64,000 bases of DNA, from positions 1-64,000 of the forward strand of contig LUYE01000013.1 in the NCBI GenBank assembly GCA_001602645.1, written 5' to 3'. The notes under the pieces are model-generated. The model saw only the letters and a list, made by a program, of their open reading frames with translations. It ran no database searches and was not told the DNA's origin. Below, one piece after another: positions 9,545-10,781 of the stretch. The number at the start of each line of letters is the position of its first letter. Position 1 is the stretch's first letter. Both the position numbers and the translations under genes were made by a program. The DNA comes from Methanosarcinales archaeon Methan_01 (GTDB lineage Archaea; Halobacteriota; Methanosarcinia; Methanotrichales; Methanotrichaceae).

Positions 9545-10003
9545 CTACAGGCTGCTCTCAGTCCTCCATGAGGCTTCTTTGAATATGGTCCCGGGATACT
9601 TAACATCGGAGGTGAACTCCTCGGTCACCAGACGGTACTGCCTCTGGTTTCTGTTGCCGCGACGTTCCAGGACGCCGTCGTAGTACATCCTCGAAAGGTA
9701 TGTGGAGACGGTGCTGAGCTTTATGTCGTCGGATATGGTCTCATACCGGTCTCTGAGGTCGTTTGAAGAGAACCAGGAGTCGGGGAACTCATCCCTGACG
9801 AAGATCTCCAGCCTGTCTCTGAGGGTCCGGCTGTTGTCAGGTTTCGCCAGGACGTCCTCGGGGAAATGATCTGGGGCTTCTGAGAAGACGCCGGCTGCGT
9901 CCAAGAAGTCTATGATCCTCTCTCGGACTATGGCGCCCTCAAATACGTGGGTAGACTTCATCCCCTTATCTTCGATCTCGATCTTGATCTTCATTCGACC
10001 CAT
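9545..10003 (-). CDS. Small protein with a C-terminal winged-helix domain
   Basis: About 152 residues. The N-terminus is a strand-rich charged region (MKIKIEIEDKG), the middle LRDRLEIFVRDEFPDSWFSSNDLRDRYE and IKLSTVSTYLSRMYYDGVLERRGNRNQRQYRL form a clear winged helix with the recognition helix at STVSTYLSRM. This resembles archaeal proteins that use a wHTH to bind DNA or other proteins. No ligand domain is evident. Stands alone on its strand; convergent with the cysteine-rich membrane protein gene. Start ATG at 10003 or 9994. Confidence 0.65.
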   Translation of the reverse strand: MGRMKIKIEIEDKGMKSTHVFEGAIVRERIIDFLDAAGVFSEAPDHFPEDVLAKPDNSRTLRDRLEIFVRDEFPDSWFSSNDLRDRYETISDDIKLSTVSTYLSRMYYDGVLERRGNRNQRQYRLVTEEFTSDVKYPGTIFKEASWRTESSL

Positions 10004-10092
10004 CCTTCAGTGGGGACCCCTTTTTACGAGCCTTCCCTCTCTGAGATTATGGAGACGGAGAAGCTTGGCAGAAAGATCGAGGGAATTGTGAA

Positions 10093-10248
10093 TGGCGAAT
10101 CAGGACCATATGGAGCAGAACTCCTGATCCGCCCGCCCCCTTCATTTCAACCCTTCATCTGATGATATCTACCTTTGAGTGATGAAGGGCGAATCAAGAC
10201 GAGAGCCGTCTCGGAAGCTCCATCCGATTCGCCCGCCCCCCTTCATTG
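10093..10248. repeat. Two tandem hairpin-forming repeats
   Basis: Two units about 94 bases apart share the layout GGCGAATCA-GAC ... GAT(C/T)CGCCCGCCCC-CCTTCATT. In unit 1 GGCGAATCAGGA pairs with TCCTGATCCGCC (one mismatch). In unit 2 GGGCGAATC pairs perfectly with GATTCGCCC, with a smaller inner hairpin GAGA-GCCG-TCTC. Both the repeat and the pairing are conserved, which suggests structured RNAs or a small mobile repeat. No coding frame explains them. Confidence 0.55.
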
Positions 10249-10284
10249 CTATCTCCCTTACCAGCTACCTAGTTAAATGTGAAT

Positions 10285-10320
10285 TTGGAGCCCCGGGATC
10301 GATCCCGAAGTCGCTCCAAA
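10285..10320. repeat. Long two-part stem-loop
   Basis: TTTGGAGC and GCTCCAAA are perfect inverted arms, and between them lies the perfect palindrome CGGGATCGATCCCG (10294-10307). Together they can form an extended hairpin or cruciform. It is in line with the two hairpin repeats just upstream. It could be part of a non-coding RNA, a terminator element or a protein site. Confidence 0.55.
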
Positions 10321-10781
10321 GACAGAGGTAAACTCACGATCTTGCCTCCCTTCACTTCCCCTACCAATGAAGAACCTCCACCCCCTTCAAAGCAGAGATC
10401 CCCCCTTCATTGCTTTGTGATCAGGCTGGATGTGAATTTGCTTCTGCAACCATCCCTTGTGTTATATTGGTATATAAACTTTTCTGAGTGTAGGGAGATG
10501 TAGTAGCCAGGTAAAACTTGATAAATACAGTTTAATTAAGGATTTAATTCAAAATATTGGGTTAAATCATATTCACAAGACTTCAAATAGGTTTAGTATT
10601 TGATAGATTCAAAAATGAGATAGTTGACGACCAAAAGACCGGCAAAAATCGGAAGACTCTCTTTCCTCCCCAGGAGAATGGAGAATGCCCAAAAAGATCC
10701 TGCCGTCGTCCTCATCGAATATATATCGGAGTTTGAAATGAGGCGCCCCCCCGCGGGGCAGTAGACGGCTCAGTCGCGCCC
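10321..10781. other. Non-coding stretch, G-poor then AT-rich
   Basis: The first 120 bases repeat pyrimidine-rich words such as CCCCCTTCATTG and CCTCCCTTCACTTCCCC, reminiscent of the 3' part of the hairpin units. From about 10460 it becomes AT-rich with TATA-like words (TATATTGGTATATAAAC). I see no convincing gene. Confidence 0.4.

Follow-up and report, generated by a model that had tools for sequence, protein, structure and literature searches.

A predicted multi-motif leader RNA upstream of a winged-helix gene in Methanotrichaceae and a candidate trans-encoded small RNA complementary to its repeats

The abstract describing sRNA162 of Methanosarcina mazei presents it as a base-pairing sRNA with two interaction domains, a trans target that encodes a transcription factor, and a single-stranded linker through which it pairs, masking the ribosome-binding site (PMC3510493). 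On that description it is the nearest precedent in this archaeal class for the small RNA that we call RNA2 below: both are archaeal sRNAs of the same methanogen class and each has a regulator-type trans target, predicted in the case of RNA2. The abstract describes no multi-site target array (PMC3510493), and RNA2 instead exposes a C-rich loop and a 3' tail. The comparison with sRNA162 is by description only; our covariance model of RNA2 (R3) had no match in 150 genomes of the class outside the family.

C-rich loops are also found in the Staphylococcus aureus sRNAs IsrR and RsaE (PMC9410917, PMC9217828). Unlike RNA2, these are bacterial, are unrelated in sequence and are not known to have a family-wide multi-site leader partner. 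The exposed C-rich motifs of the S. aureus sRNAs pair with G-rich leaders of several mRNAs, as is predicted for RNA2; their targets, by contrast, are typically Shine-Dalgarno regions. Sponges of the CsrB/RsmZ type carry many short G-rich motif copies in hairpin loops, as does the second RNA of this study, RNA1; they sequester the protein CsrA, whereas the repeats of RNA1 complement another RNA. Bacterial sRNA sponges and decoys carry sRNA sites and may titrate the sRNA, usually through one or two sites and with a narrow distribution. RNA1, in contrast, has 4 to 14 motifs, occurs throughout an archaeal family and lies upstream of a conserved regulator gene.

Archaeal sRNAs with known partners are few. 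Methanothrix is a dominant acetate-using methanogen, and no Methanothrix sRNA was found in the open literature searched. The two undescribed RNAs reported here offer a testable base-pairing partnership, whose contact sites co-change by lineage, and candidate target mRNAs. If our reading is correct, they form a conserved archaeal system of sRNA and multi-site leader or sponge, and offer a defined model for a question still open in archaea: how sRNAs locate their targets when no chaperone has been clearly identified.

A preliminary description of the window (the whole 64,000-nucleotide stretch of DNA that was analysed) had reported a three-hairpin array at 10093-10320. All three hairpins were recovered at these positions:

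10094-10132, minus strand: hairpin A, the second module, related to hairpin B and diverged from it; degenerate in three of seven relatives
10187-10234, minus strand: hairpin B, GGGCGAAUC/GAUUCGCCC pairing with an inner stem
10284-10320, minus strand: hairpin C, an optional inserted hairpin

Two of the units had been called akin and about 94 bases apart, and they are: direct repeats D3 and D4 link hairpins A and B at spacings of 94 and 100, and a covariance model of hairpin B recovers hairpin A at 29.4 bits. The repeated CGCCCCCCTTCATT, on the other hand, had been assigned to a stem and lies outside the stems; read from the minus strand it is AAUGAAGGGGG, which is complete at three places in the region and has variants at several more. 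In the genus alignment, hairpin C is present as an insert in four of seven genomes and is cleanly missing from the other three.

The 246-nt stretch folded modestly better than its dinucleotide shuffles (z = -2.2 on the plus strand, -2.5 on the minus strand), and comparison across genomes is stronger evidence for structure than these scores. The covariance analysis proposed in the preliminary description gave a divided result for hairpin B. Its pairing is kept (97.7% of cells paired across seven species) and 9 of its 19 pairs vary, but only two of them by double change. The pairing collapses on sliding, yet shuffles of the 3' letters attain the same values. Covariation inside hairpin B alone is therefore poor evidence, and the structural case depends on strand asymmetry and on the wider comparison.

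That comparison makes the hairpins part of a predicted structured RNA of about 285 nt on the minus strand (RNA1), with the following features:

10177-10461, minus strand: conserved structured domain of RNA1, from alignment A4 and its consensus fold; 255-300 nt in relatives
10471-10486, minus strand: predicted RNA1 promoter with BRE and TATA box, AGAAAAG-TTTATATA, near-invariant in seven genomes
10487-10508, minus strand: conserved element GCTACTACATCTCCCTACACTC just upstream of the promoter, near-invariant in seven genomes
9545-10003, minus strand: gene for a winged-helix-like protein of 152 aa, downstream of RNA1, with a conserved start at 9994

Absence from relatives would have spoken against a function, and relatives do carry the region: 9545-10520 is kept in seven of the nine genomes of the genus, own genome included, and the whole region is 73-81% identical in the six others. 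A search for further copies in the own genome returned a single one. The alignment folds at -70.7 kcal/mol on the minus strand vs -39.6 on the plus strand, because A-C and C-A mismatches of the plus strand are U-G and G-U pairs on the minus strand; a plus-strand RNA was dismissed on this energy difference and wobble asymmetry. The consensus fold in the window genus has a closing helix of 5' GGGAUG with 3' CAUC. In oriented alignments, the near-invariant block ends in TTGGTATATAAACTTTTCT, which on the minus strand is an archaeal BRE/TATA box of consensus sequence. From archaeal promoter spacing, the start site would lie at about 10445-10455, and GCTACTACATCTCCCTACACTC is conceivably an activator site.

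The preliminary description missed the strand, the full span (about 10177-10455, with further modules downstream) and the fact that the feature kept across genera is the repeated C-rich motif, not the stems. It had recognised no known RNA family, and we agree: neither the window region nor 17 of the orthologous loci gave RNA1 a match to any Rfam 15 family at gathering score, the CsrB/RsmZ family included. Weak matches, some resembling the fluoride riboswitch, were rejected as they fell under gathering scores and in some cases on the wrong strand. Searches of two genomes of the genus, G006 and G007, recovered neither RNA1 nor the winged-helix gene, and both of these keep RNA2. With 94% completeness, genome G007 may truly have lost them.

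RNA1 is most likely, judging from its position, the 5' leader of the winged-helix gene. Orthologues of the protein (49-84% identity) occur at 33 named Methanotrichaceae-type loci, which belong to Methanothrix/Methanosaeta, M. harundinacea MAGs being nearest to the window. No known identity could be given to the protein, which had no Pfam or NCBIfam family above cut-off and no PDB relative by sequence. A diverged version of RNA1 lies upstream of this gene in every Methanotrichaceae genus examined. Most loci have 4 to 14 AAGGG(A/G) motifs in the sense direction and 0 or 1 in antisense; across the 33 loci, AAGGGA occurs 146 times in sense vs once in antisense (13-fold over background) and GAAGGG is present upstream in all 33. 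Most orthologous loci of other genera have one TATA box, which precedes the motif array, and no separate promoter for the winged-helix gene was seen at most loci. The GAAAGGGA motifs form hairpin loops whose stems differ between loci yet match: 3.92 of 5 flanking pairs form, vs 2.95 after permutation (permuted maximum 3.42). The unpaired probability of the motif G residues did not rise in 2 of 15 cases.

Other features of these loci were seen in passing. Two paralogous copies of the winged-helix gene (L036 and L037) have neither AAGGG(A/G) motifs nor the upstream RNA; L037 sits on a contig with the label Candidatus Micrarchaeota, probably Methanothrix DNA that was misbinned. Most other genera (L040-L066) have a conserved small ORF, MRGxIKLFTLxxxx, between the array and the gene, for example from 181 to 13 nt before the gene in L041; no such ORF was seen in the window genus or g5. 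Upstream of the RNA1 TATA box in three Methanothrix loci (L041, L044 and L062) are the conserved repeats ACTATTCTGAxTACTATTA and TTGTGAA, which are candidate transcription-factor sites.

A pattern search for clustered RNA1 motifs identified the RNA2 locus, with an almost identical 42-mer in nine genera. It lies apart from RNA1 in the own genome (contig C34 vs C63) and is syntenic in the trm1-npdG interval:

C34:82455-82569 of the own genome, plus strand: RNA2, between trm1 and npdG

Model R3 found RNA2 in 48 of 50 family genomes. The RNA takes the form of a hairpin, in which a GGCACGAG/CUCGUGCC stem closes an invariant C-rich loop, ACCCCCUUCAUUGCUACUCCC, followed by a 3' tail; its 5' hairpin (hairpin 1) covaries, and the loop is identical in all nine genomes of the window genus. 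The TATA-like element of the locus is conserved and sits on its far side, so the transcript would be the C-rich strand. This strand is confirmed by RNA2 paralogues in genus g6, which differ in their stem and have a canonical TATA box that reads the C-rich strand:

L127, G023:C1:1194711-1194837: predicted second C-rich-loop sRNA, genus g6
L129, G021:C3:161803-161929: predicted second C-rich-loop sRNA, genus g6

The converse, RNA2 as a G-rich strand resembling a miniature RNA1, was rejected on both the side of the TATA-like element and the strand of the paralogues. Against Rfam, RNA2 loci gave only sub-threshold chance matches (E up to 0.5). With its separate locus, apparent promoter of its own and exposed complementary region conserved above background, RNA2 qualifies as a putative trans-encoded sRNA. 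No description of RNA1 or RNA2 was found in the open literature, most subscription journals being outside its coverage.

The complementarity of the two RNAs was well above expectation. In 15 genomes, 8-mers of RNA2 had 413 perfect complements in RNA1, vs 24.2 in shuffled and 26 in antisense sequence, and the matches sit in the loop and 3' tail of RNA2 with hardly any in its stems. The own RNA1 has four sites for the RNA2 loop and one for the tail:

10236-10262, minus strand: main predicted RNA2-binding site, GGUAAGGGAGAUAGCAAUGAAGGGGGG, 24 bp with the RNA2 loop and one bulged A
10378-10408, minus strand: predicted RNA2-binding site, two GAAGGGGG runs, one of them in a hairpin loop
10344-10365, minus strand: predicted RNA2-binding site, GUGAAGGGAGG
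10135-10163, minus strand: predicted RNA2-binding sites, AAUGAAGGGGG (in a loop) and GAUGAAGGGUUGA

The best duplex in the own genome, at 10236-10262, reached -46.7 kcal/mol, vs a mean of -25.5 and a lowest value of -32.9 for shuffled RNA1. Genome G015 showed no excess of duplex energy, and sites of moderate duplex energy for the RNA2 loop were barely more numerous than in shuffles. What sets RNA1 apart from shuffles is exact k-mers and the best duplexes, not the number of moderate-energy sites.

The GAUGAAGGGUUGA stretch of RNA1 complements a genus-specific RNA2 tail, AACCCUUCAU. Tails vary by lineage (GCCAACCCUUCAUUG, GCCAUCCCUUCU and GCAAAUCCCUUCUUUG), and the RNA1 of each lineage fits its own tail best. 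Matching 9-mers per RNA1 to the g1, other and g5 tails numbered 5.0, 0 and 0 for RNA1 of g1; 0, 2.5 and 8.0 for g5; and 1.5, 6.5 and 1.4 for the others. Co-change of tail and RNA1 is thus seen across three lineages. A second co-changing stretch, on the 3' side of the loop, separates the window genus, g1, from the others (CUCCCUUAC vs CUCCCUUUCGC). The g5 RNA2 loop had been expected to follow the g5 repeats; it is unchanged and the g5 site pairs through one G-U, although the g5 tail does co-change. Some of the lineage-specific matches could have arisen by the copying of reversed RNA2 sequence into RNA1 modules, and not through selection for pairing. That the repeated motifs of RNA1 match the loop and tail exposed by RNA2 suggests a control system made up of two RNAs.

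RNA2 may have other targets. The nine genomes of the genus contain AATGAAGGGGG 60 times, vs 2 for the reversed pattern, and about 32 sites lie outside RNA1 and RNA2. Many of these are loops of leader hairpins, and they precede the histidyl-tRNA synthetase gene hisS (in six genomes) and genes for a C25-family peptidase, Cdc6/Orc1 and a DUF1538 protein. AAGGGAG stands just upstream at 11 of 33 sites vs 7 of 639 control positions, and a 7-bp stem surrounds 21 of 33 vs 201 of 639. Single RNA2 sites in the hisS, C25 peptidase, cdc6 and DUF1538 leaders suggest a putative regulon in this genus. In other genera, extra AATGAAGGGGG sites are rare, mostly coding-like or unrelated and only in a few cases leader-like; we therefore rejected general leader targets there, and the regulon may be special to the window genus. 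Separately, seven loci (L136, L154, L166, L169, L171, L173 and L179), several of them in genome G003, have similar hairpins with GCAATGAAGGGGG in the loop and no obvious gene directly downstream. This family is possibly another RNA2-linked non-coding RNA or leader.

We consider it likely, from the sequence comparisons, that RNA1 is a minus-strand leader that serves as both multi-site target and decoy of a trans-acting sRNA, RNA2. RNA1 would be transcribed with the winged-helix gene as its 5' leader, and its G-rich repeats (AAUGAAGGGGG, GGUAAGGGAG and UGAAGGGUU) would base-pair with RNA2, whose hairpin would display the complementary C-rich loop and 3' tail. RNA2 would act in trans as an antisense sRNA, with single-site targets in the hisS, C25 peptidase, cdc6/orc1 and DUF1538 leaders. 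Since RNA1 is a multi-site target, RNA2 would control the winged-helix mRNA through it, and since the sites are many, expression of RNA1 would in turn soak up RNA2. The comparisons support the strand and structure of RNA1, RNA2 itself, the complementarity and its co-change; we infer that the RNAs are transcribed, that they form duplexes in the cell and that RNA1 is co-transcribed with the gene, as well as the sign of regulation and the sponge role. That the sponge is the main role of RNA1 has slightly less than an even chance. The wider proposal is evenly balanced: a family-wide archaeal post-transcriptional network, with one highly conserved C-rich-loop sRNA acting on a set of mRNAs at hairpin-displayed UGAAGGGGG sites in leaders, the long winged-helix leader as main target and sponge and, in every lineage, joint evolution of the two RNAs where they pair.

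In one alternative, RNA1 is a non-coding sponge in its own right, separated from the gene by processing or termination and with no role in winged-helix expression. The multi-site architecture and, in the window genus, the closing helix that ties the two ends of RNA1 together are consistent with this; it is nonetheless unlikely, as RNA1 directly precedes the same gene in all the genera examined and that gene has no visible separate promoter at most loci. The latter observation, that a second TATA box is not seen at most loci, would equally suit a cis-acting leader (riboswitch-like or autoregulatory) in which the G-rich motif is a protein-binding site and RNA2 either arises as a by-product or competes by masking the motif. 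The many hairpin-loop copies upstream of a putative regulator gene fit such a leader too, and GGA motifs of bacterial CsrB RNA bind CsrA. We know of no CsrA in archaea, however, and a protein site predicts neither the 24-bp complementarity, nor its confinement to loop and tail, nor the lineage-specific co-change. We hold this explanation to be very unlikely.

Tandem-like modules A and B, C-rich repeats and a GC-rich genome could also point to a repetitive DNA element or MITE, or to DNA sites for a transcription factor or G-quadruplex. We find this extremely improbable: the element is single-copy and fixed in position without dispersed copies, the motif has a strand bias of 146:1, the structure is kept as RNA with G-U pairs, and the UGAA part of the motif is conserved beyond the G run. 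Of the two interpretations in the preliminary description, RNA function or a small non-autonomous mobile repeat, only the former is supported. The mobile repeat was rejected on its single copy per genome and synteny, the same gene being always downstream and terminal repeats absent. An RNA function is favoured by the strand-asymmetric wobble pairs in a conserved structure, the predicted archaeal promoter, the family-wide upstream position and the complementary partner RNA.

Elsewhere in the window, a 122-nt Rfam tRNA match at 146-267 on the minus strand, missed by ARAGORN, is probably an intron-containing tRNA.
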